DNA of 64,000 nt from Streptomyces mangrovi (GTDB lineage Bacteria > Actinomycetota > Actinomycetes > Streptomycetales > Streptomycetaceae). Both the position numbers and the translations under genes were made by a program. This document shows positions 3,357 to 52,913 of the stretch, piece by piece. Within the stretch, counting starts at the first letter, position 1. Each line of letters starts with the position of its first letter. The stretch is from positions 186,001 through 250,000 of the forward strand of contig NZ_FOSG01000001.1 in the NCBI RefSeq assembly GCF_900114215.1, read 5' to 3'. The notes below the pieces were generated by a model. That model ran no database searches, was not told where the DNA came from, and saw only the letters and a program-made list of their open reading frames with translations.

Positions 3357-3561
3357 GGCGTCCACCCTGTCCGAAGGTGCCCCCGGGAAACAGGTGCCCG
3401 GGGCGCGTATCGCCACCGGCTGAAACCGCGCGGGCCGGTGACTGCGGAAAACGACGGACCGCGGCAGGAAACCGGCCGGTGCCACCGTGGTGTCGGTGGC
3501 CTCCCGGAATGCCTGGGAGGCCACCGATCCCATGGCCTGCGGCCGGACCGCCTGCCCTGCC

Positions 3562-3678
3562 TCAGCCACGGTGGGCGGCCTGGAGGAGCAGGACCATGGC
3601 GACGGCCGAGACCGTGACCAGGAGAGTGGTCCACGTACACGACTCCAGACGCCCGCGGCGCCCGCGTTGGGACGTCAC
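3562..3678 (-). CDS. 38-residue single-pass membrane protein
   Basis: A small gene visible as the third cistron of a leftward operon. Its GTG start (3678-3676) overlaps the TGA of the preceding gene in a GTGA junction, the same junction used between the first and second cistrons, which supports translation. The product has an Arg-rich N-terminus (TSQRGRRGRLES) and one hydrophobic helix (TTLLVTVSAVAMVLLLQAA), predicting N-in, C-out. Function unknown. It resembles the tiny Spd-type membrane proteins of Streptomyces plasmids in size and context only. Confidence 0.5.
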   Translation of the reverse strand: MTSQRGRRGRLESCTWTTLLVTVSAVAMVLLLQAAHRG

Positions 3679-4172
3679 CGGCCCGCCCCCTTCCACTCCG
3701 CGCCGCCGAACAGCGGCTGCGGGCCTGCCGGTTCGGCGATGCGGTGGGCGTGGACGGTGAGGTTGCCGTCCTCGTACGACCAGCCCTGTCCGGTGTCGGC
3801 CCGCTCACGGACGCGGGCGGGGTCATGGAAGACCGACGGGGCCAGGCAGCCGCGCATCCCGCGCAGCATCACCGGCACGTCCCGGCCGATCAGCACCCCA
3901 TAGGACACGCTCGGGAACAGCCGGTCCAACTCCCTGTCGGGGCGGCCGGCCCAGCACAGCCGGTACCAGCCCTCACCACCGGGCGGCGGCACGGGAGCGG
4001 GCGCCGCCCTCTCCTCCCGCCCCGGATGGCAGGGGCAGCCGCACGCCAGGTGGCGCACTCCGGGTACGCCGCTCTCCCCCGGCTCGGCCTCGACGCACTC
4101 TCCGTGCGCCCCGATCGCGCAGCGCACGGAGATGTATCCGGCCTCCTCCGCGGCCCTTCCCGCCACGCTCAC
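3675..4172 (-). CDS. hypothetical protein, Cys-containing N-terminus
   Basis: Second cistron of the leftward three-gene operon. It starts at GTG 4172, overlapping the upstream stop (GTGA), giving 165 residues. The N-terminal third has a Cys/His cluster (CAIGAHGECVEA...HLACGCPCHPG) that could bind zinc. The C-terminal half has FPSVSYGVLIGRDVPVM and a GWSYEDGNLTVHAHRIAEP strand pattern. I do not recognise the family. The divergent GntR regulator and the tight overlaps suggest a mobile-element accessory module. Confidence 0.55.
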   Translation of the reverse strand: MSVAGRAAEEAGYISVRCAIGAHGECVEAEPGESGVPGVRHLACGCPCHPGREERAAPAPVPPPGGEGWYRLCWAGRPDRELDRLFPSVSYGVLIGRDVPVMLRGMRGCLAPSVFHDPARVRERADTGQGWSYEDGNLTVHAHRIAEPAGPQPLFGGAEWKGAGR

Positions 4173-7771: not shown

Positions 7772-8298
7772 TGGGGTGCGTCCTTCCTGGGGTGGTCGCC
7801 GCCGTGGATCTGGTCCACGGCGTGCGGCAGCAGGGGTTCCAGGACCGCCAGGCCGTCGCGTACGCCTCCGGTGGAACCGGGGAGGTTGACGATCAGGGTG
7901 CGGCCGGCGACGCCCGCGACGCCGCGCGAGAGGGCGGCGGTGGGCACCTTGGCCAGGCCGGCGGCGCGGATGGCCTCGGGGATGCCGGGGACCTCGTGGT
8001 CGAGTACGGCCCGGGTCATCTCCGGGGTGCGGTCGGTGGGCGAGATGCCGGTGCCGCCGGTGGTGAGCACCACGGCGTAGCCGTCGGCGACGGCCTCGCG
8101 CAGCACGTCCTGGACGGGCTCGCCGTCCGGGACGACGCGCGGGCCGTCGGTGGCGAAGCCCAGCGCGCCCAGGGCCTGGGCCAGCAGCGGGCCGGTGGTG
8201 TCGGAGTAGACGCCCGCGGCGGCGCGGTTGGAGACGGTGACGGCCAGGGCGCGGCGGGCCATGGGCGCGGGCTCGGACCCGGGCACGGGCTCGGTCAT
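7768..8298 (-). CDS. moaB: MoaB/MogA-type molybdopterin adenylyltransferase
   Basis: A 176-residue MoCF_biosynth domain protein: [20 protein letters not shown] at the start, then a [15 protein letters not shown] molybdopterin-binding loop and [13 protein letters not shown] near the end. It activates molybdopterin by adenylylation before molybdenum insertion by a MoeA-type protein. Its ATG (8298) overlaps the moaC stop (ATGA) and its stop overlaps the acetyltransferase start, so it is translated in a coupled operon with moaC and downstream of glp. Confidence 0.9.
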
Positions 8299-26885: not shown

Positions 26886-26958
26886 GCCTTCGTAGCTCAG
26901 GGGATAGAGCACCGCTCTCCTAAAGCGGGTGTCGCAGGTTCGAATCCTGCCGGGGGCA
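26886..26958 (+). tRNA. tRNA-Arg(CCT)
   Basis: A 73-nt cloverleaf. Acceptor GCCTTCG pairs with CGGGGGC (two G:U pairs). The anticodon stem CCGCT/AGCGG holds loop CTCCTAA (anticodon CCT, codon AGG). The T arm is GCAGG-TTCGAAT-CCTGC. Its 3' 43 nt are repeated at 51299 and 52871, marking it as an integration site. Confidence 0.95.
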
Positions 26959-26960
26959 CA
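26917..26960 (+). repeat. attL core (tRNA-Arg 3' end)
   Basis: Runs from CTCCTAAAG in the anticodon loop to the end of the tRNA plus CA. The same sequence recurs at 51299-51342 (one A-to-C change) and at 52871-52913 (43 nt, perfect). Integration here reconstitutes the tRNA gene. Confidence 0.9.
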
Positions 26961-28293: not shown

Positions 28294-29532
28294 TCAGGCT
28301 GTGGCGTCCTCCAGGATCGCCACCGCCTCGGCGGCCTTGCGGGCCTTCTTCTCTGCCTTCTCCAACTTGCCTCTCGCCTTGGCCAGCTGCTTGGCACGGC
28401 GCTTGTGCATCTTCTTCGAGACCTCGTCGAGGCGGTCCGGGAAGAGGTGGCCGTACGTATCCAGCGTCAGTGTCGCGGACTTGTGACCGAGCATGCTCTG
28501 AACGACGTTGACGTCCGCGCCGCTGGCGATGGCGAGGGAGGCCGCCGTGTGGCGCAGCTTGTGCGGCGTGAGTCCGAGGTGACCGAGCCCCGCCTTGGTG
28601 ACGGCTGACGCGAAGAACCGCTGCCGGAAGTTCCGGGCCCGCAGCGGCCCGCCTTGCGGAGCCGTGAACAGGAGCTCAGCCTCGCTCCGCCCGTCGACAT
28701 GGGGCCTCAGCTCCTCAACCAGGAACCGGGGGATCGGGACGGACCGGCGCTCGTGGTTCTTGGGGGTGTCGAGGTAGAGCTTGCCGTTGTCCTCGACGTA
28801 CGCCTCGACGATATGGGCACGGCAGGCGTCGAGGTCGACGCGTCCCACCTTCAGTGCGGACGCCTCACCCCAGCGCAGCCCCGTGTAGGCCAGCAGCAGG
28901 ATGAACACCCGGTAGGCGCCTGCCGCGTCGGCGAGTGCGTCCACCTGTAGGTCATCGAGATAGACGTGGTCGGTGGGGGCTGCCTTCGGGAGGGGCACTC
29001 CGACGGCCGGGCTGACGGCCAGACGACGGGACTGGACCGCGTAGCCAAGAACCCGGCTGAGGACGACGTATGCCTTCCGTACCGAGCGAGGGCTGAGCTT
29101 CCTGCCTCCCGTCACCTCGCCGGACAGCATGTCGCCGAGCCACTCGGCGATGTCCTCGAAGTGGATGCGGTCCAAGGACGTCGTTCCCCACCGCGGGATC
29201 ACATGGACATCGAGAACCCCCCGATAGCGATTGCGCGTCGAGCGCTTGAGGTGGATCTGGGCGGCCAGCCAGGAGTCGGCGACCTCGGCGAACTTCACGC
29301 GCCCGGCGGCCGGATCCCGATAGGAGCCGTCGGTGAGCCGGGTCTCCAGCCTGGTCCGCTCGGCTTCGGCGTCGGCCTTGCGGGCCACGGTCTTCATCTT
29401 CGGCTTGCCATCGGGCCCGTACCAGCGCACGCGGTAGCGGCCGGGCGGCGTACGGCCCGCCTTCCTGGCCGCCGCCACGGCTTGCGCGTACGCCGCGTGC
29501 CCGTTGCGATCCTCTATCCAGACTCGCGCCAT
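28294..29532 (-). CDS. int: tyrosine-type site-specific integrase
   Basis: A 412-residue integrase that recombines attP with the tRNA-Arg site. An AP2-like N-terminal arm (YRVRWYGPDGKPKMKTVARK) and a SAM-like core-binding domain (FAEVADSWLAAQ...) precede the catalytic domain. The catalytic set is complete: Arg220 (TGLRWGE), Lys258, His324 and Arg327 (HKLRH), His350 (LGHKSA), Tyr360 (DTYGHL). A basic helical C-terminal tail (KARGKLEKAEKKARKAAEA) is extra. It is transcribed towards attL and divergent from the excisionase gene. Confidence 0.95.
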   Translation of the reverse strand: MARVWIEDRNGHAAYAQAVAAARKAGRTPPGRYRVRWYGPDGKPKMKTVARKADAEAERTRLETRLTDGSYRDPAAGRVKFAEVADSWLAAQIHLKRSTRNRYRGVLDVHVIPRWGTTSLDRIHFEDIAEWLGDMLSGEVTGGRKLSPRSVRKAYVVLSRVLGYAVQSRRLAVSPAVGVPLPKAAPTDHVYLDDLQVDALADAAGAYRVFILLLAYTGLRWGEASALKVGRVDLDACRAHIVEAYVEDNGKLYLDTPKNHERRSVPIPRFLVEELRPHVDGRSEAELLFTAPQGGPLRARNFRQRFFASAVTKAGLGHLGLTPHKLRHTAASLAIASGADVNVVQSMLGHKSATLTLDTYGHLFPDRLDEVSKKMHKRRAKQLAKARGKLEKAEKKARKAAEAVAILEDATA

Positions 29533-29970: not shown

Positions 29971-30192
29971 TTGCCCGACCACCTGGATCGATCCCCTGCC
30001 TGTGAACGCGGCACGCTCGCGTCTCCCGCCGATGTGGCGGCCTATCTCGGGGTGCCGGTGAAGACGCTGTACCAGTGGAAGTACCGGGGCACCGGCCCGG
30101 CGCCACTGAAGGTCGGCCGGCATCTGCGCTACCGCTGGCGTGATGTAGACGCCTGGCTCAACCGGCAGTCGCCGTACAGCCTGACGGCATGA
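29971..30192 (+). CDS. xis: excisionase-type helix-turn-helix protein
   Basis: 73 residues with the MerR-like/HTH_17 fold of excisionases: TLASPADVAAYLGVPVKTLY, QWKYRGTGPAPLKVGRHLRY, RWRDVDAWLNRQ. These proteins bend att DNA and steer the integrase to excision. The TTG start at 29971 is preceded by AGGAGA; the longer open frame upstream has no homology. It is divergent from int, and the DUF3631 gene follows after a hairpin. Confidence 0.8.
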   Translation: MPDHLDRSPACERGTLASPADVAAYLGVPVKTLYQWKYRGTGPAPLKVGRHLRYRWRDVDAWLNRQSPYSLTA

Positions 30193-30275: not shown

Positions 30276-30314
30276 CTCGGTGGGGCAGGACCTTGCCCGT
30301 CCTGCCCCACCGAG
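30276..30314. promoter_or_regulatory. perfect 16-bp hairpin between xis and the DUF3631 gene
   Basis: CTCGGTGGGGCAGGAC at 30276-30291 pairs perfectly with 30299-30314; loop of 7 nt. No U tract follows, and the DUF3631 Shine-Dalgarno begins 2 nt later. It could be a terminator of xis, an attenuator, or a replication-control structure. Confidence 0.6.
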
Positions 30315-30326
30315 AGAGGAATGCCT

Positions 30327-32063
30327 ATGGAGGACTCTACGTCCCCCACCACAAACGCCGGTCCCCAGATCACCTGGCCCGCGGTCGCCGTCCCGGGCCA
30401 GGGAGCGTCCCCGGCCCGTACGCCCCAGACTGAGGCACCGTCCCCGGAGGCGGGGGCCGGCCTTTCTTCTGCCGCAGATCAACGTGGGGACCGTCGCACC
30501 GAGGGCTCGGAGAAGGAGCACGGTCCCCGGTCCCCTGGTGGCGGGAACCGTCCCCACTCCTGGTCCCTGCCACAAGGGGACCGGAGAGCACCAGACCGCG
30601 GAAACTCGCTGGTAGAAGGCCCGATGACCGGGGACCGTGACGGCGGTCCCCAGAGGACCGCCGCAGGGACCGGTACTCACAGTGCTGAGGCGACGGTCTC
30701 CGGTCCCCGGCCCTCACCGGGGACCGCGCTGGGGGGCCGTCGTGGGGACCGTGGTCCCCGTCGGTCCCCGGGGACCGACGGTCCCGTGCAGGGGACCGCG
30801 CAGCAGGGGACCTCGGTCCCGGAGGGCGGGTCGGGGACCGGGAACCGAGAGGGGACCGGTCCCCGGGTGTCGGGGGACGGGGCGGTGGTGCTGGATGAGT
30901 TGCGGGCGGCGATCGGCCGGTACGTGGTACTGCCGAGCGAGGAGGCGCTGACCGCGGTCACGCTGTGGGTGGCGGCCTCCCACATCCAGCCCGCCCTCCA
31001 GCACGCGCCCCGGCTGGCGGTGGTGGGACCGACCAAGGGGTGCGGCAAGTCCCGGGTCCTGGACGTGCTCTACGAGACCGTGCACCAGCCGATGATGACG
31101 GTGAACACCTCCCCGGCGGTGGTCTTCCGGGTCATCGGCAAGAACCCGCCCACGCTGCTGGTGGACGAGGCCGACACCATCTTCGGCCCGAAGGCGGGCG
31201 AGAAGGAGGACCTGCGCGGTCTGCTGAACGCCGGGCACCAGCGCAACCGGCCCGCCTGGCGGATCTCCGGGCCGGAGCACAAGCCGACCGCATTCCCCAC
31301 CTTCGCCATGGCCGCGCTGGCCGGGATCGGCGACCTGCCGGACACGATCATGGACCGGGCGGTGGTGCTCCGCATGCAAAAACGCAAGCCCGGCGAGCGG
31401 ATCGCCCCGTTCCGCTCGCGGTACTCCGCTCCCGAGCTGAACGCGCTGCGCGAGAAGCTGGCCGCTTGGCTGACCCCGCTGCGCGGAACGGCCGCCGCTC
31501 TGGTGCCGGCGATGCCGGTGGAGGACCGGGCCGCGGACACCTGGGAGCCGCTGGTGATCGTCGCCGACCTGGCCGGTGGCCACTGGCCCGCGAGCGCGCG
31601 GGCCGCTTGCCTGGCGATGACCCGCAACGAGGTGGTCCAGGACGAGCAGACCACGCTGAAGACGCGGTTGCTGCGGGATATCCGCCGTGTCTTCGACCAG
31701 GCAGGCGATCCCGAGGCGCTGCGCAGTCAGGACGTGCTCGCCGCCCTCGCCCAAGACGCCGAGGCGCCGTGGGCCGAGTACGGCACCAAGGGCCTGAACG
31801 CCTACCACCTGGCCAACCTGCTCCGGGACTTCGGCATCAGCCCGGCCAACCACCGCTTCGAGCAGGGCCGCCAGGCCAAGGCATACGCCCGTAACCAGTT
31901 CCTGGACGCCTGGGCCCGCTACTGCCCCGACCCTGCCCAACCGGCCCCTGCGCCCGGGCACGAGGCCGCACGTCCGGCCCGGGGCACGCCGCCCGCTCCT
32001 CTGTCCGGATCGCTGCCCATCGGCCCGCCGGGCGGCCCTGCCAGCCCTACGCGCGCCCGCTGA
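30327..32063 (+). CDS. DUF3631 ATPase-like replication protein
   Basis: 578 residues. The first about 190 are low-complexity Gly/Pro/Arg/Thr sequence encoded by dense GGGACC/GGTCCC repeats. The conserved part follows: DELRAAIGRYVVLPSEEALT, Walker A VGPTKGCGKSR (234 onward), Walker B TLLVDEADTIFG, LNAGHQRNRPAWRISG, and MDRAVVLRMQKRKPGER, then the DUF3631 C-terminal region (RSQDVLAALAQD). DUF3631 proteins occur in actinobacterial plasmids and integrative elements in primase/helicase-like roles, so replication of the excised circle is my inference. ATG 30327 is chosen over ATG 30321 because the ribosome site GAGAGAGGA needs spacing. Confidence 0.8.
   Translation: MEDSTSPTTNAGPQITWPAVAVPGQGASPARTPQTEAPSPEAGAGLSSAADQRGDRRTEGSEKEHGPRSPGGGNRPHSWSLPQGDRRAPDRGNSLVEGPMTGDRDGGPQRTAAGTGTHSAEATVSGPRPSPGTALGGRRGDRGPRRSPGTDGPVQGTAQQGTSVPEGGSGTGNREGTGPRVSGDGAVVLDELRAAIGRYVVLPSEEALTAVTLWVAASHIQPALQHAPRLAVVGPTKGCGKSRVLDVLYETVHQPMMTVNTSPAVVFRVIGKNPPTLLVDEADTIFGPKAGEKEDLRGLLNAGHQRNRPAWRISGPEHKPTAFPTFAMAALAGIGDLPDTIMDRAVVLRMQKRKPGERIAPFRSRYSAPELNALREKLAAWLTPLRGTAAALVPAMPVEDRAADTWEPLVIVADLAGGHWPASARAACLAMTRNEVVQDEQTTLKTRLLRDIRRVFDQAGDPEALRSQDVLAALAQDAEAPWAEYGTKGLNAYHLANLLRDFGISPANHRFEQGRQAKAYARNQFLDAWARYCPDPAQPAPAPGHEAARPARGTPPAPLSGSLPIGPPGGPASPTRAR
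30360..30864. repeat. dense GGGACC/GGTCCC iteron-like cluster
   Basis: I count 22 occurrences of GGGACC or its complement in 505 bp, 11 on each strand; most extend to GGGGACCG. Examples in plus orientation: 30486, 30576, 30630, 30719, 30744, 30770, 30791, 30833, 30851. Complement: 30360, 30522, 30529, 30645, 30702, 30753, 30763, 30858. Several are back to back, forming palindromes (30763-30777, 30851-30864). They lie within the N-terminal coding part of the DUF3631 gene. Confidence 0.8.
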
Positions 32064-32253
32064 CCCACTTCCCCGCCGGGTCCGTCTCGCTCCGTCGCAT
32101 CCGTCCCCGCGCAGGTCAGCGCGGGGACGGATCTCCTCGCCGCAACGGATCTGTCCGTACCTGCACACCGGTCCGTACCTGTCCTGACCAGCCCTGCGAC
32201 GGATGCGACGGACGTGACGAAGCCCCACCCCACACGACTTCCGGAGCACCACC

Positions 32254-32904
32254 ATGCCCGACCAGCACCATCAGAGCCTCTCCCAGCAGGAGGCGACCAC
32301 TGCGGCCACCCGGCCAGCAAGGTATAGCGTTGGACCGTCCAAGGGACGGTCCAACGCGACCTCTTCCGCCCCGGGGGTGGCGGAGGAGGCCGGGCACCAG
32401 GGGACGCCCGAGGGAAAGCAGCCCGCCATGCCGCTCGCCGAGTCCGCCGGGTCGCTGCCGCGCGCGGCCGAAGCCGCTGCCCTGCACCGCATCGCCCGTC
32501 GCCGCCGACGCCAGGACACCCAGCGCAAGGAGCGCGTCGATGTGCGCTACAGCGCCGAGGAGAAGAACAAGATCGTGGCCAGGGCGAGGTCGTTGAACAT
32601 CGCCGGTGCCCACCTGGTCGGTGCCGCAGTCATGGCCTATCTCGGCGGCGACCTGACACTGCCCGGCCAACGCACCGCGCTGGACGACTACATCGACGAG
32701 TTGACCGCCCTGCGCGAGCAGGTCGCCAAGGTCGGCACCAACGTCAACCAGATCGCCCGCAAGCTCAACTCCGGCGGCCACCCCCACCCTGGGGACACCG
32801 CCGCCCTGGCCCAGGCCGAACGCACCCTGACCAGCGTCCGTGCCGCCGTCGGCGAGATCGCGACAGCCGCGAACCAGGCCGTCACCGGGAAGGCGTCCCG
32901 GTGA
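32254..32904 (+). CDS. mobC: MobC-type relaxosome protein
   Basis: 216 residues. The conserved part is C-terminal: KERVDVRYSAEEKNKIVARA, LNIAGAHLVGAAVMAYLGGD, LDDYIDELTALREQVAKVGT and NVNQIARKLNSGG, the MobC signature. MobC unwinds oriT and helps the relaxase nick. The first about 58 residues are low complexity and span a DNA hairpin. An internal ATG at 32428 (MPLAESAG) could be the true start, leaving the hairpin non-coding. The stop overlaps the relaxase GTG (GTGA). Confidence 0.88.
   Translation: MPDQHHQSLSQQEATTAATRPARYSVGPSKGRSNATSSAPGVAEEAGHQGTPEGKQPAMPLAESAGSLPRAAEAAALHRIARRRRRQDTQRKERVDVRYSAEEKNKIVARARSLNIAGAHLVGAAVMAYLGGDLTLPGQRTALDDYIDELTALREQVAKVGTNVNQIARKLNSGGHPHPGDTAALAQAERTLTSVRAAVGEIATAANQAVTGKASR
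32327..32357. other. candidate oriT hairpin
   Basis: Perfect 14-bp inverted repeat GCGTTGGACCGTCC / complement, loop AAG, immediately upstream of the conserved mobC reading region and the relaxase. Position and symmetry fit an origin of transfer. An operator or RNA hairpin is possible. Confidence 0.45.
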
Positions 32905-34598
32905 TCGCCAAGATCAGCAGCGGCAAGAACACCGCTGGCCTGATCCGCTACCTCTTCGGCCCCGGCCGGGCCAACGAGCACACCGACCCGCATCTGGTCG
33001 CCTCCTGGGACGGCTTCGCCCCCGACCCCGGCCGCACCACCGACCCCGCCGCCACCAGGAAGCTCCTGGTGGCCGACCTCGACCTGCGCGTCAAGCAAGC
33101 CCGCCGCCTGGGCCGGGCGCCTGAGCGGCACGTGTGGCACTGCTCTCTGCGCGCCGCACCTGAAGACCGCCACCTCACCGATCGGGAGTGGGCTGCCATC
33201 GCCCGCCGCGTTGTGGCGGCCACCGGCATCGCGCCACACGGCGACCTGGACGGCTGCCGCTGGGTCGCCGTGCGCCACGCACCCGACCACATCCACATCG
33301 CCGCCACCACCGTCCGCGGCGACCTGCGAGAGGCCCGCCACTGGAACGACTATCTCACCGCCGACCGCGAACTGGCGGCGATCGAGGCCGAGTACGGCCT
33401 GCGCCAGGTGGTGCGTGGTGACCGCACCGCCGCCAAACGGCCCACCCGGGCTGAGCAGGAGAAGGCCCGCCGCCACGGCCGGCAGAAGACCTCCCGCGAA
33501 CGCCTGCGCACCACCGTCCGCCAACTGGTCTCCATCGCCACCAGCCCGGAGGAGTTCCTCCACCTCCTCGACGGCGTCGAGGGCGTCCTCGTCGACGTCC
33601 AGCACTTCCCTTCCGGCGACGTCCGCGGCTACAAGGTCGCCGCCGAAGGCGACACCAACGCCGCCGGCCAGCCGGTCTGGTTCTCCGGTTCCGCCCTCGC
33701 CTCCGACCTGTCCTACCCCAAAATCGCGGAACGCCTCACCGCCATCGAAACCCCACCGGCAATCGAGTCGAGCAGCCTGCGCAGGCCGAACCTCTGGCAC
33801 CAGGCCACCGCGGCGGCCGAACGCATCCCCCACCACCTCGACCGGGGCCACGACACGGCGGCCCAGGCACACATCGCGGCTTTTGGCGAGGCCCTTGACA
33901 TGCTTCCGCTTCTCGCCCCCAGACACCTTCGATCGCAGCTTCAGCAGGCTGCCAGCGTGTTCGAACGCGCCTCCCGCTCCCGTATCCGAGCCAAGCAAGG
34001 GCAGGCCCGTGCCCTGCGCGGCGCCGTACGCGCGCTGCGAACGGCCCCGATCACCGGTGACGGACTGGCGATGTTCCTCGACGTCGCCGTCCTCGTTGTC
34101 ATCGCTGCAGCCCGCTGGCACCAGGCTCGCCAGCACGACCAACAGGTTGCCGCCGCTCACCAAGCCCTGGTCCATCTCCAGGCGGCCTACCAGCAGGCTG
34201 TGGCTCAATCACTGGCCGCCCTGGCCCAGCACAAGCCACCTGCCCGCACTGTGGAACGCCACGCTCAGCACATACGAGCCGTCCTGCCGAACTACGCGGA
34301 GCGGGTCCTCGACGACCCCGCCTGGCCAGCACTGGCCGCTGTTCTCACCCAAGCCGAGACCGTCGGCCACGTCCCCCGGCAGCTCCTCCAGCACGCCGCC
34401 CGCCAGCGCGCCCTGGACAACGCCCGCTCCCCCGCCAGGACCCTCACCTGGCGCATCCGACGCCTCGGCACAAGGCCAGCACCCAGCGCACGAGCCCGTG
34501 CAGCACAAGCTCGCGCCACAGCACAGCGCTCTGCTGCTCCCGTCCACTCGGCAGCAACCGCTGTGGCCCCGCAACCACCACATGCACAAGGGCGGTGA
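32901..34598 (+). CDS. mobA: relaxase / mobilization endonuclease (MobA/VirD2-like)
   Basis: 565 residues. The N-terminal about 200 form the relaxase domain: MIAKISSGKNTAGLIRYLFG, HVWHCSLRAAPEDRHLTD, and the metal-binding His triad in VRHAPDHIHIAATT (His126, His130, His132). The C-terminal half is helical and Ala/Gln-rich with a hydrophobic segment (MFLDVAVLVVIAAARW). It would nick oriT and pilot the strand. GTG 32901 overlaps the mobC stop. No coupling protein is adjacent. Confidence 0.88.
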   Translation: MIAKISSGKNTAGLIRYLFGPGRANEHTDPHLVASWDGFAPDPGRTTDPAATRKLLVADLDLRVKQARRLGRAPERHVWHCSLRAAPEDRHLTDREWAAIARRVVAATGIAPHGDLDGCRWVAVRHAPDHIHIAATTVRGDLREARHWNDYLTADRELAAIEAEYGLRQVVRGDRTAAKRPTRAEQEKARRHGRQKTSRERLRTTVRQLVSIATSPEEFLHLLDGVEGVLVDVQHFPSGDVRGYKVAAEGDTNAAGQPVWFSGSALASDLSYPKIAERLTAIETPPAIESSSLRRPNLWHQATAAAERIPHHLDRGHDTAAQAHIAAFGEALDMLPLLAPRHLRSQLQQAASVFERASRSRIRAKQGQARALRGAVRALRTAPITGDGLAMFLDVAVLVVIAAARWHQARQHDQQVAAAHQALVHLQAAYQQAVAQSLAALAQHKPPARTVERHAQHIRAVLPNYAERVLDDPAWPALAAVLTQAETVGHVPRQLLQHAARQRALDNARSPARTLTWRIRRLGTRPAPSARARAAQARATAQRSAAPVHSAATAVAPQPPHAQGR

Positions 34599-34914
34599 TC
34601 ACAGCCCTGCGCACCAGGACGTGTCCGTCCTACCCAATTTCGGCTTCCAACAGGTCCAAGACTTCCTCCCATCGGAAGCGATCCGCGCCTCCACCTGCCT
34701 TGGGCCGATGCGGCTCGTAGCTGCCGATCAAGCGGCAGGCAGCACCGGGAGCCGCGCAAGCACGCCAGGCCGACACCAACGCCGACGAGAGCGCATATCC
34801 GGAACCGACCGCAGCGGCTCAGCTCCCGTGAGTAGGATCACATCCTACCCGTGCGGCCGAGTCAGGCCTCCACGGTGTCTACTTACCCGCTCTCCAGCTC
34901 GTGAAGGTGGATGC
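34599..34914. promoter_or_regulatory. intergenic region upstream of mkoA with palindromic operator candidate
   Basis: 316 bp between the relaxase and the first defence gene. It contains GTAGGAT-CAC-ATCCTAC at 34832-34848, a perfect 7-bp inverted repeat about 67 bp before the mkoA start. Size and position fit a repressor operator, but no dedicated regulator gene is adjacent. Nothing coding recognised. Confidence 0.45.
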
Positions 34915-37900
34915 ATGACAACTCCCACCGTCGGGACGTTGCTTCTGCGGAACAGGTACGAAATCACCGGGGGTCCACACGCAGGTGACGGCGAGTCCCA
35001 GGTCTGGGAGGCGTTCAGCGACGGCTACACGTACCTGCTCAAGACATGGACATACGAGGGCGAGCAACCGGACCGGGTGCAACGCGCCCTGTGGGACCAG
35101 GAACTGCGCACCCTGTACAAGGTCGCGAGCAGCCCGAGGTCGGACGACGCACTGGTCGTACTCAAGGACGCTGGCCTCGACCGGGACCACCAGTGCTTCG
35201 TTATGGTCCTGGAGTCACCGGGCTACAAGCGCGTCGCCGACGCGCTGCAGCACCGCGCCCGCTACTCGTGGCTCTCGAACCGCGGGACGGCCACGCGCGA
35301 ACAGCTGTGGAGCGGCTTATTGCGCGTCGCCACAGGGCTGAACCTGCTGCACGAGCGACAGGTCCTGCACCGGGGCGTGGACCTCGACTCCCTCTTCTTC
35401 GACGAGGACCTCGGTGCCGAATCCCTTCGGCTCGGCGGCTTCGAATGGTCCGTCAAACTGGGCCGTCCGGTGGGGACTCAGCCCCCTGCCGGCTGGCCGG
35501 TTCCACCGGAGCGCACCACGGGAGGCGTGACTGCCTGGCGTCAGGACGACGACTGGTTCGCCTTCGGCATCCTCTGCGCACGGCTACTGCTCGACCTCGA
35601 ACGCTTCACCACCAATGCCCCGCGCGAGCGTCACGCACGGGTGCTCAAGACCATCGACACTGCCAAGCATGAGCTGACCGAGGCCGAACGCAAGCTGCTG
35701 CTGGACCTCGTCGCCGCAGACCCGCTTGAGCGCCTGACCGCGCCGTACGACATCATCAGTCGGATCCAGGACATCACGCGGGCCCTAGCGAGCCCCCTGC
35801 GCACCCAGCAGGAGGACGTGCAGTACGTCCTGGCCCTCGATCTGCGGCGGCCGGAGTTCATCGATCACCTGATGGAGAGCGGACTGCGTGACCACTTGCG
35901 GCTCGACCCCATGGGGACATTTATTCCTGGGGATCCGGTCCACCGAAAGGAAGCGTGCGAGTTCGTCCGCCAGGACCTGCAGAAGCCTCTTCTGTACGCC
36001 ATCCCGGGCAGGCCGTACTTCATCCTTGTCGGCGGCAGGCTCAGCCTGAAGATCACGGCGCACCGAGGGAAAGACGGCACGTCCAGCTGGCAGGTCGCGG
36101 ACTGCCGGTCCGCCCAGCCACTGCTCTTCAGCGAGGGCGACGACAGCTTCCGCGAACTCCCGCCCGGCCGCGTGTTCGCCTATGCCAGGGACGAGGTGGC
36201 CCGCGACCGTACGATCGCGCAGAACGCCACGTCATGGGAGCCCGTGCTGCCGAAGATCGACCGCAGTGCGCAGGTCTCACGCGAACTCAGTCGCTTTCAC
36301 GAGTTCGTCCGTGTGAGCAACCAGATCGAACTGCTCCTCCTGGACTCACAGATCTTCCCGTACGAGGTCGTCCGCGGCCCGTGGCTGGAGGACGGCGTGG
36401 AGTGGGCCATGGTCAAGGAGCGCGCGCGCCCGGAAGGACACGAAGTCTTCGAGGCGTTCCGCGTGGACTTGATCGATTTCCTGCAGAAGGAGGTAAGGGG
36501 CAGCGACCGGTCCAAGGTCATCCTGTCGGGAGCCCGCGACGGCGCCCGTTTGAAACTCCCGCCCCGAGACCCCCACTCCGACGACGAGGGCAACGTATGG
36601 CAGGTAGATGCCATGGACCAGGCGACCGAGGTCGTCACACTCAGCCGCCCCAGTCTGAGCAAAAGTCGCGTAAAGCTGGAGAAGGAGGGATTCCTCCGCA
36701 GCGCTGGCATGCCCGGCCAGATCAGCCTGTTCCAGCGTCGCAAGAAGGCCATCGACGCCCTCGACCAGCACGGATACCTCCTTCGATCGCTGGCCACCCC
36801 GAGCCACGTCCGCATGGACACAGGCGCTTCCGAGCTTCCCGTCGTGCTCCCCCACGAACGGGTCGACGAGCCCAAACGGGCCAGCATCGAGGACATCCTC
36901 CGAGTGCGGCCCATATATACGCTCCAAGGGCCGCCCGGTACAGGCAAGACCACCCTCGTCGCCTGGCTGCTGCGCGAGATCCTCACGGAGGATCCCGTCG
37001 TCCAGGTACTGGTCACGGCCCAGGCCCACGGAGCCGTCGACGTGCTCAGGTCGAAGGTGGGTGAGGCGTTCCAGGACGTGCCCGAAGCCGACAGGCCGCT
37101 GCAGATCCGGCTGCGGGGTCCCCACAAGGCCGGAACCACACTGCCGGAGGACGGCGTCGAGGGCGTGGCCAGGCAAGTTCTCCAGCGCAGCATCTCTCAG
37201 CTCAGTGCAATGAGTTCCCCCAGCGAAGTTCAGCTCGCCTGGCTGGAGGACGCGAAGGCCATGGTCAGTGAGATCAACATGATGCAGGAGCAGGGGGAGC
37301 TCGGCCGCCGCTCGTCGGACTTCGTCGAACTGGTCAAACGCGGCGCGAACCTCACGTACTGCACCACTAGTGCCCACGACTTGGTCGCCCTCGCCGCAGG
37401 TCAGGCGTTCGACTGGTCGATCGTCGAGGAGGCGGGCAAGGCGCACGCGTTCGACCTCGCACTACCGCTGCAGGCTGGCCACCGTTGGTTGCTGATCGGC
37501 GACCACAAGCAACTGGATCCCTACCGATACGAGGACTACCAGCAGGGAATCGAGAAGCTGGACCCGGTGGCGCAGACCCTCAGCCGCCTCAAAGTAAGGG
37601 CGTCCGGCCTGCTTGACCAGGAATGGCTCGACTCGTGGGAACGGCGCAGCCAGACAGACCGGGATGAGTTCCGCGAGTACGCCAAGGAGTGGTTGAGGAC
37701 CTTCCACCGCCTGTACGAGTACTGCGCCGTGGCCACGGGTACCGACCGTCTCGTCACGGACACCGAAGCGAAGGGAGCGTCTGCGGGGCAGTTGATCGGC
37801 CAGCACCGCATGCACCCGGACATCGGCCAGCTCATCTCCGAGGCGTACTACCAGGGGCGACTGGTGAACCGCACCCTGGACAAGAAAGACGAACCGGTGG

Positions 37901-38559
37901 AGCGCGTGCGTCACGGCTTTCACACCCCGCACGGCATCCGTGACCGGGCCGTGGTCTGGCTCGACGTACCGTGGTGCCGCAACGGCGCCGCCACCCGCGA
38001 GGTTGGCCCGAGCAGCGGCCAGTCGCCGTACACCAATCCAGCGGAGGCGCGCGCGCTCGCCAACTTCCTCCGAGCCCTGGGACCAGATGGCGGGTGCCAG
38101 GGCAAGCTCGCGGTGTTGGCCCCGTACTCCCGGCAGGTGAGCCTGCTCAGCCAGCAGTTGCGGGGCACGCCCTTGCCTGCCGGACTACAGGTTCAGCTCG
38201 GTCTCAAAGCCGAAGCGATCGACGGCAACCGGTTCCCCGCCCACACCGTCGACTCCTTCCAGGGCAACCAGGCGGACGTCGTCGCCATAAGCCTGGTCCG
38301 CAACAACGAGGAGGAAATCGGCCGCGGCCTGGGGTTCCTCGACGACCCGGGCCGGATGAACGTGCTCCTCTCGCGGGCGGAGCGCCTGCTGATCCTCGTC
38401 GGGTCCTGGGATTTCTTCCTCCACCAGGTGCAGGCAGTACCTCTCGCGGATGAGTCCCAGCCCTTGTGGTCCTTCAAGAAGATCGTCACCTTGCTCGACG
38501 AATGGTTCCTGGACGGCAGGGCTGTGCGTATCCCGGCTGACCTCAGGGAGAACTCGTGA
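34915..38559 (+). CDS. mkoA: Mokosh type I MkoA: kinase-like domain fused to SF1 RNA/DNA helicase
   Basis: 1214 residues. Residues about 12-290 have a Ser/Thr-kinase fold: Lys43 in LLKTW, and a catalytic loop in which HRD reads H152-R-G154 and DFG reads G-G-F (174-176). It therefore looks like a pseudokinase. After a middle region comes an SF1 (COG1112/UPF1-like) helicase: Walker A GPPGTGKTT (Lys678), motif II VEEAG (837-841), motif III LIGDHKQLDPY, motif V VDSFQGNQADVV, motif VI GRMNVLLSRAE. Helicase plus kinase followed by a PLD protein is the described architecture of type I Mokosh anti-phage defence. ATG 34915 has GAAGGTGG upstream. A TTA codon (35317) is codon 135. Confidence 0.82.
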   Translation: MTTPTVGTLLLRNRYEITGGPHAGDGESQVWEAFSDGYTYLLKTWTYEGEQPDRVQRALWDQELRTLYKVASSPRSDDALVVLKDAGLDRDHQCFVMVLESPGYKRVADALQHRARYSWLSNRGTATREQLWSGLLRVATGLNLLHERQVLHRGVDLDSLFFDEDLGAESLRLGGFEWSVKLGRPVGTQPPAGWPVPPERTTGGVTAWRQDDDWFAFGILCARLLLDLERFTTNAPRERHARVLKTIDTAKHELTEAERKLLLDLVAADPLERLTAPYDIISRIQDITRALASPLRTQQEDVQYVLALDLRRPEFIDHLMESGLRDHLRLDPMGTFIPGDPVHRKEACEFVRQDLQKPLLYAIPGRPYFILVGGRLSLKITAHRGKDGTSSWQVADCRSAQPLLFSEGDDSFRELPPGRVFAYARDEVARDRTIAQNATSWEPVLPKIDRSAQVSRELSRFHEFVRVSNQIELLLLDSQIFPYEVVRGPWLEDGVEWAMVKERARPEGHEVFEAFRVDLIDFLQKEVRGSDRSKVILSGARDGARLKLPPRDPHSDDEGNVWQVDAMDQATEVVTLSRPSLSKSRVKLEKEGFLRSAGMPGQISLFQRRKKAIDALDQHGYLLRSLATPSHVRMDTGASELPVVLPHERVDEPKRASIEDILRVRPIYTLQGPPGTGKTTLVAWLLREILTEDPVVQVLVTAQAHGAVDVLRSKVGEAFQDVPEADRPLQIRLRGPHKAGTTLPEDGVEGVARQVLQRSISQLSAMSSPSEVQLAWLEDAKAMVSEINMMQEQGELGRRSSDFVELVKRGANLTYCTTSAHDLVALAAGQAFDWSIVEEAGKAHAFDLALPLQAGHRWLLIGDHKQLDPYRYEDYQQGIEKLDPVAQTLSRLKVRASGLLDQEWLDSWERRSQTDRDEFREYAKEWLRTFHRLYEYCAVATGTDRLVTDTEAKGASAGQLIGQHRMHPDIGQLISEAYYQGRLVNRTLDKKDEPVERVRHGFHTPHGIRDRAVVWLDVPWCRNGAATREVGPSSGQSPYTNPAEARALANFLRALGPDGGCQGKLAVLAPYSRQVSLLSQQLRGTPLPAGLQVQLGLKAEAIDGNRFPAHTVDSFQGNQADVVAISLVRNNEEEIGRGLGFLDDPGRMNVLLSRAERLLILVGSWDFFLHQVQAVPLADESQPLWSFKKIVTLLDEWFLDGRAVRIPADLRENS

Positions 38560-51298: not shown

Positions 51299-51342
51299 CT
51301 CCTCAAGCGGGTGTCGCAGGTTCGAATCCTGCCGGGGGCACA
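51299..51342 (+). repeat. inner right att copy (tRNA-Arg 3' end, one mismatch)
   Basis: 44 nt matching 26917-26960 except C for A in the former anticodon loop (CTCCTCAAG). No 5' tRNA half precedes it. It marks the right end of the 24.4-kb element. Confidence 0.88.
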
Positions 51343-52870: not shown

Positions 52871-52913
52871 CTCCTAAAGCGGGTGTCGCAGGTTCGAATC
52901 CTGCCGGGGGCAC
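52871..52913 (+). repeat. outer att copy (tRNA-Arg 3' end, perfect)
   Basis: 43 nt identical to 26917-26959. With the inner copy at 51299 it delimits a 1.5-kb segment, the remnant of an older or tandem insertion. Confidence 0.9.

Follow-up and report, generated by a model that had tools for sequence, protein, structure and literature searches.

The window, by which we mean the whole 64-kb stretch of DNA analyzed here, contains an integrated element whose left boundary is the 3' end of a tRNA-Arg(CCT) gene (Table 1). The genes are arranged in the order tyrosine integrase (minus strand), excisionase-like HTH protein, DUF3631 protein, mobC, relaxase, and a large ORF. The large ORF gave matches to MAD6 (MADS protein kinase) and IGHMBP2/PLuB-type helicase models, below the curated cut-offs, and is a possible defence cargo. 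Two att-like copies, one of them partial, were observed at the right end, where two nested or tandem elements may be present.

The integrase, att repeats, and relaxase of an integrative mobilizable element were all found. The FtsK/TraB-type translocase of an AICE was not detected in the window with two queries, and the window's own genome gave no match to the PF02534 coupling protein, in a search comparable to the PF03432 search that overlooked the window's own relaxase. The element is therefore best described as an integrative mobilizable element. According to the available text of PMC3218068, DUF3631 proteins are RepAM, taken as the replication initiators of actinomycete integrative elements of the pMEA300 type. 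DUF3631, the tyrosine integrase, and the tRNA site are common to such AICEs and the window element, which differs from them in having a relaxase and MobC instead of a TraB/FtsK match.

The DUF3631 start given in Table 1 appears likelier than the first in-frame ATG (30321), because the SD-like AGAGGA directly precedes the latter. The predicted protein consists of a short N-terminal peptide, a low-complexity linker, a segment with Walker-A-like GPTKGCGKS and Walker-B-like LLVDEAD motifs (by eye), and the DUF3631 domain. AlphaFold2, run with 24 close sequences, gave a mean pLDDT of only 47, so the term low-complexity linker refers to composition. The DUF3631 profile had no sequence relatives in the PDB at E 0.1. 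Within mobC, a perfect inverted repeat is perhaps an oriT overprinted on the coding sequence. Inverted repeats of other sequence, with similar flanks, were seen by eye at about the same place of mobC in other loci.

Table 1. Features of the integrated element (positions refer to the window)
Feature	Position	Strand	Remarks
tRNA-Arg(CCT)	26886-26959		3' end is the left boundary
att repeat	26917-26959		3' 43 bp of tRNA-Arg(CCT)
Tyrosine integrase	28294-29532	-	
HTH_17/excisionase-like protein	29971-30192	+	TTG start 29971 by eye; ORF listing begins 29707
Hairpin	30276-30314	+	16-bp arms, 7-nt loop CTTGCCC; just upstream of DUF3631 start
DUF3631 (RepAM-type) gene	30327-32063	+	PF12307, E 1.7e-71
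GGGGACCG array	30360-30864	both	11 GGGACC + 11 GGTCCC; linker-coding part of DUF3631
Perfect palindrome CGGTCCCCGGGGACCG	30762-30777		within array
Perfect palindrome GGGGACCGGTCCCC	30851-30864		within array
Intergenic repeat region, candidate oriV of the DUF3631 module	32064-32253		GACGGA x6 and CCCCGCGCAGGTCAGCGCGGGG hairpin; GACGGA count reached in 0/300 shuffles
mobC (MobC/NikA-like)	32254-32904	+	
Candidate oriT	32327-32357		perfect 14-bp inverted repeat GCGTTGGACCGTCC-AAG-GGACGGTCCAACGC within mobC coding DNA, by eye
Relaxase (MobA/VirD2-like)	32901-34598	+	
Large ORF	~34600-38559		
Partial att copy	51305-51342		ARAGORN calls the surrounding stretch tRNA-Leu
Second att copy, candidate right end	52871-52913		43 bp

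A dense array of short repeats within the DUF3631 gene

The linker-coding DNA of the DUF3631 gene is occupied by a short repeat, the fuller unit of which is GGGGACCG; in the 800 bp ahead of the AAA-like core, 16 of 24 GGACC cores match this unit. The original prediction had counted 22 GGGACC/GGTCCC hexamers here, eleven per strand, and an exact recount agreed. The excess that it claimed over base composition also held, as the composition of the region leads to an expectation of 0.9 hexamers. Synonymous codon resampling, using the codon usage of the rest of the gene and one neighbouring gene, gave a mean of 3.0 (maximum 9 in 5000), and synonymous codon permutation within the region gave a mean of 6.3 (maximum 13 in 5000). 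The window has 87 of these hexamers, with 20 in one 500-base bin and at most 3 in every other bin. The palindromes that had been predicted were likewise found, including the perfect ones in Table 1. The array resembles an iteron-type origin in having multiple short repeats near a rep gene.

Seven of the 11 plus-strand copies lie in codon phase 0 and four in phase 1; for the 11 minus-strand copies, phases 0, 1, and 2 hold seven, three, and one. These mixed phases indicate that the array is not a single peptide repeated. As RNA, the array folds with unusual stability (z -4.9), as expected given its inverted repeats.

We analyzed site layout in 23 representative arrays. Neighbouring sites in +- order showed a 5-bp tail-to-tail spacing in 29 of 105 cases, corresponding to the abutted palindrome GGACCGGTCC, and ++ neighbours showed a 7-bp head-to-tail spacing in 14 of 127. 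Helical phasing of the sites was rejected for these arrays, which had no clear 10-11 bp period.

Conservation of the array in DUF3631 homologues

The homologue set comprised the best 80 of 116 loci from a genome scan, with 79 of the 80 records titled as Streptomyces. L034 and L044 start at the gene itself and were dropped, leaving 78 usable loci, among them L079 with only 250 bp upstream. Counting in homologous elements, as the original prediction had proposed, placed the array at the same position: 69 of the 78 loci have at least 8 GGACC cores in the 700 bp ahead of the AAA-like part, 8 loci have 2 to 5, and L079 shows 6. Most arrays consist of GGGGACCG, 12 loci have CCGGACCG, and L006 and L010 mix in GCGGACCA/G. 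A G-quadruplex is unlikely, as the main unit of the CCGGACCG class is without a GGGG run. The anchored arrays form nine groups that were mutually non-alignable at the threshold used, with the window alone in its group, and a tenth group is array-less.

The short peptide ahead of the array (MEDSTSP...VAVPGQG in the window) is recognizably shared among homologues. Peptide and core lie in one open frame in 73 of 77 anchored loci, counting the window as L001; the frame is broken in L027, L055, L066, and L078, and these breaks may be real or sequencing errors. Beside its frame break, the pre-core stretch of L078 (about 7800-7980) resembles, by eye, the beginning of the core gene in inverted orientation.

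An array-less clade of eight loci is nested among array-bearing ones on the DUF3631 tree, which indicates loss of the array. Since this clade lost it, the array is not essential to a closely similar backbone. DUF3631 relatives at about 58-64% identity are mostly without an array, with the exception of L140 (64%), and L137 and L219 (about 70% identity) also have none.

In the 39-locus group, the identities at codon positions 1/2/3 were 0.92/0.95/0.72 for the core gene, 0.54/0.54/0.52 for the array spacers, and 0.73/0.67/0.68 for the repeats. Three further array groups showed the same ordering of core, repeats, and spacers. The linker of the array-less group was nearer to a coding pattern (0.91/0.94/0.89). 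In the 39-locus group, whole GGACC sites were retained in 0.47 of comparisons, versus a mean of 0.16 for 29 other permutations, a control in which decoys of the GACCG type (GACCG, ACCGG) overlap the motif and are not independent. GGACC retention exceeded the permutation average in all four array groups, and the motif ranked fourth among the permutations in group L005 and second in group L006.

The equal divergence of the spacers at the three codon positions, together with the better preservation of the repeats, indicates that selection acts on the DNA, as originally suggested. The linker thus evolves much like non-coding DNA that just stays open, with the repeats held. The opposite pattern, conserved amino acids without conserved DNA repeats, was mostly not seen, as the repeats persist in 69 of the 78 loci, whose encoded segment is not conserved as protein; it was seen in the nested clade of eight, and the distant relatives are mostly without an array. 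A protein-level repeat as the cause of the DUF3631 arrays was excluded by the codon phases and the codon-position divergence. We are highly confident that the array is conserved as a DNA-level element and not as a protein.

A separate candidate origin downstream of DUF3631

The intergenic region between DUF3631 and mobC contains its own repeats and folds as a long dyad (z -4.2). We compared the commonest 6-mer downstream of DUF3631 with 300 first-order shuffles at 19 loci. Its count was reached in 0 of 300 shuffles in the window, L015, L072, L139, L144, L002, and L003; in 1-10 in L005, L017, L137, L138, L141, L142, L143, and L004; and in 23-51, which is not significant, in L022, L063, L068, and L140. 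Where the repeats are not significant, the region is recognized by a shared skeleton (by eye, 17 loci). The commonest repeat was GACGGA/ACGGAT in the window and L015, ACCCGT in L137, ACGAGT in L140, GCCGTA in L004, and ACGGCA in L138, L139, and L141-L143. The circular plasmids L002 and L003, which have genes of the TraB or FtsK type and no relaxase annotation, contain 11 and 13 copies of CCGCTAC. The downstream repeat region exists in the array-less clade too. The downstream repeats accompany DUF3631 in the subfamilies examined, and their sequence changes with the subfamily.

An iteron origin should track its initiator and change with it. The array did not, being missing in related DUF3631 clades and present without a DUF3631 match, and the downstream region appears to follow this pattern better. 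L140, whose own downstream repeat is not significant, hints that the array is decoupled from the downstream repeats. The proposal of an origin inside the initiator gene, made in the original prediction, is consequently less supported: the array does sit in a RepAM-type gene, but separate repeats accompany DUF3631 downstream, and GGGGACCG arrays occur without a DUF3631 match. The array is probably not the main DUF3631 origin, and on sequence grounds the intergenic region is the more likely candidate.

Precedents for an origin reading exist in the available text of three sources. The initiator genes in PMC3218068 are of the same RepAM type as the one containing the array, and the words "iteron" and "inverted repeat" are absent from the main text of that paper. 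The Streptomyces plasmid pWTY27 (RepA/RepB) has 8-bp repeats GTGGGAAC on both strands by its rep genes and long inverted repeats footprinted by RepA; its iterons are non-coding, the footprinted inverted repeat is 105 bp, and the replication locus was shown experimentally (PMC3583192). The array resembles the RepA-bound iteron region of pWTY27 in having short repeats on both strands at rep genes; it differs in its unit (GGGGACCG versus GTGGGAAC), in being mostly coding, and in not belonging to a single initiator. The closer analogue is the downstream region, a long dyad like the 105-bp inverted repeat. In a repABC plasmid, oriV lies inside repC, and silent mutations there abolished replication; this origin is A+T-rich and has no iterons (PMC3155836). 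The array is similarly a DNA element overprinted on a replication gene, with its function inferred here and demonstrated there.

By these analogies, the array could be the vegetative origin of the excised element, or a set of accessory initiator sites, bound by its own DUF3631 protein; the downstream region would then be oriT or a second site. The non-significant downstream repeats in the four loci named above would agree with this. We consider it unlikely, given that one nested clade and the majority of distant DUF3631 relatives have no array, that arrays are present where DUF3631 was not found, and that the downstream repeats accompany DUF3631 even in the TraB/FtsK-type plasmids L002/L003 and differ between subfamilies.

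The hairpin upstream of DUF3631 showed 91% of cells paired across 58 distinct sequences. It had 21 double-change cells versus 5.1 in shuffled data (0 of 500), and 7 pairs with such a change versus 4.2 (27 of 500). Compensatory changes preserve the pairing in homologues with and without an array; the hairpin also occurs in the array-less L137 and L144 and was not seen in L138-L143. Its loop may resemble pC194-type nick sites.

Arrays on elements without a DUF3631 match

Some relaxase-bearing Streptomyces elements without a DUF3631 match have GGGGACCG arrays too, in coding or intergenic DNA. L157 has an integrase, a DnaC/IstB-like ATPase (PF01695), 25 GGGACC and 5 GGTCCC in the 500 bp between the ATPase stop codon and mobC, and then a relaxase, with no DUF3631 match across 12 kb. 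L191 (14 + 6) and L235 (16 + 6) are arranged like L157. Upstream of mobC-relaxase, L187 has 41 hexamers (2 + 39) and L195 has 24, mostly in one orientation. L189 has 30 sites (6 + 24) by one count and 38 by another, in the 3' part of a 594-aa membrane-protein ORF upstream of mobC; the protein has membrane segments and a C-terminal part that is HTH-like by eye, and Pfam gave no family for it. Orientation is uneven in L187, L189, and L157, outside DUF3631. Parts of the arrays in L187, L189, and L195 encode tandem peptide repeats of the GTEPxGDRG type and are therefore weaker evidence for DNA-level selection.

We observed TGACCG variant arrays in the linker-coding DNA of membrane ORFs related to that of L189, in L223 (5270-6337; PF10935) and L245 (11902-12975), the latter being S. 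angustmyceticus plasmid p1 with the ORF annotated DUF2637. A GGACCG array was found in L234 in a membrane ORF that is similar by eye. The DUF2637-type membrane proteins with an HTH-like C-terminus in L223, L245, and L234 show a similar overprinting on another gene with a variant motif.

A PF03432 relaxase sample of 25 places from 121 genomes, incomplete in that the search missed the window's own relaxase, included clear NGACCG arrays in L223, L230, L234, and L235 and a weaker one in L231. Among the remaining 20 places, weaker clusters of other 6-mers in L228, L229, L236, and L239 (GCCGAC, GACCGG, GCCCGC, CGACCG) were not counted as arrays. L186, L188, and L190 have one-orientation GGGACC repeats and no mob-gene match, and were not counted either; L192, L194, and L196 have only 5-7 sites. 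The tallies from array-based genome searches are lower bounds, with 2-3 of some dozens of candidates scored per genome. A second array in the window's own genome was not found among the 2-3 candidates scored, a weak negative, and BLAST of two arrays against plasmids gave nothing, which is also weak since BLAST masks simple sequence. Many of the 3.5-kb loci reach ~1.5 kb on each side, and their mob genes can go unseen. In the viral-contig loci L173-L185, sites were counted only: L179 has 18 in one orientation, and L183 (IMG/VR contig) has 14 GGGACC/GGTCCC in 500 bp (about 3500-4000) on both strands, 5 of them on the plus strand.

The clear arrays without a DUF3631 match stand upstream of mobC-relaxase, and an oriT-like inverted repeat lies within mobC, as would suit a mobilization element in which the array provides docking sites for a helper's relaxosome or coupling factor, or acts as an oriT enhancer. 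Such a role seems rather unlikely, since the motif is constant although MobC and relaxase have strongly diverged, and the majority of sampled relaxase loci have no array. Furthermore, 20 T4CP regions, chosen from a longer list, contained no 500-bp stretch with more than 4 GGGACC/GGTCCC, so no source of a helper was seen there.

Placement bears on a regulatory array as well, in which operators or a structured transcript in the 5' coding region would silence DUF3631 in the integrated state. This would suit the window, where the array begins close to the start codon, downstream of the conserved hairpin, and has a strong RNA fold; it does not suit L157, where the array comes after the replication genes, or L189, where it lies in the 3' part of another gene, and we regard it as improbable. 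Least probable of all is that short palindromic repeats built up neutrally or selfishly in a tolerant linker, without a function for the element. The repeats outlast the spacers at all codon positions in four array groups, and GGGGACCG recurs on elements with a different replication module, which argue against such accumulation despite the variable number and layout of the sites, the clade that lost its array, the one-orientation GGGACC-rich repeats elsewhere (L186, L188), and the array parts that are tandem peptide repeats.

Candidate proteins that read the array

The excisionase-like HTH protein was rejected as the binder: GGGGACCG arrays at DUF3631 loci are found together with either of two HTH/Xis types that do not resemble each other, one of which is shared with the CCGGACCG class and with array-less loci. 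MobC was rejected because its RHH strand differs among array-bearing elements (DVRYS, TIRFT, HPRYS, NTRFN, and SVRLN at the aligned strand), in an alignment of 38 rows, three of them fragments (L012, L049, L187), that located the RHH position from sequence alignment, not structures.

Among 137 distinct DUF3631 loci, none of the 75 with an array and 27 of the 62 without one matched a profile of the DUF2637-type C-terminal HTH-like segment, a deduplicated count (an earlier tree-based tally repeats places, with L134 = L140 and L136 = L137 = L221). The array without this segment arises at two separate tree places, the main clade and L140, and the mutual exclusion accordingly reflects few independent events.

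TraB clt/TRS repeats are 8 bp long and are recognized by the TraB that the element itself encodes; the window gave no match to two TraB/FtsK queries. None of the compared element-encoded proteins tracks the motif, and the reader therefore probably comes in trans from the host or from a co-resident element. By elimination, a trans-acting reader or a protein outside those compared is likely.

A proposed docking array of relaxase-bearing elements

Origins and centromeres built on arrays of protein-binding sites are well known. The arrays described here comprise roughly 8 to 40 short half-sites each, generally distributed over both strands, with palindromic pairs and loose spacing, in coding or intergenic DNA. 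The number of half-sites, the palindromic pairs, the loose spacing, and the tolerance of placement fit centromere-like sites. For this reason we tentatively favour, short of even confidence, a partition/tether-like docking array of relaxase-bearing Streptomyces elements, which is overprinted on the DUF3631 linker in the window and would act in cis and be read in trans. The partition/tether-like role in itself, in line with the partition site that the original prediction had named as its other suggestion, is similarly tentative, and we hold it with slightly more reserve. Counting against the docking-array reading, just 4-5 of the 25 sampled relaxase places carry an unmistakable array of this family.

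In the favoured docking-array mechanism, a sequence-specific protein, probably provided in trans by the host or by another resident element, would bind as dimers to the many GGGGACCG half-sites, with the abutted palindrome GGACCGGTCC as its best target. A large single nucleoprotein complex would form on the excised element and would work as a centromere or as a membrane or nucleoid tether, retaining the element in the cell and/or positioning it for mobilization. A general scan of window proteins named no par-type NTPase or binding-protein genes. SGI1, a mobilizable element, has two 22-bp parS sites and no complete par system, and hijacks the ParABS of IncC with ParB in trans, according to the available text of PMC10954446; a sites-only element using the ParB of a helper is therefore feasible. 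By comparison with the two 22-bp sites of SGI1, the present arrays have about 8-40 short half-sites, and their partner is putative.

A broader version would be one common docking array, read by a host or helper factor and overprinted on whichever gene precedes mobC (DUF3631, DUF2637-type, or none), forming an exchangeable "passport" for segregation or mobilization that does not depend on the backbone. This version is doubtful.

We found no account of this array in the titles and abstract starts given by full-text searches, outside which most subscription journals lie, and the available text of PMC3218068 and PMC9513070 does not mention it. One motif recurs across different replication modules, often inside coding linkers, where gene finders and homology searches would miss it. 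If a shared trans factor does read the array, this would be a clue to how gene-poor relaxase-bearing Streptomyces elements persist or move, and the array would provide a handle for finding the factor by pull-down.
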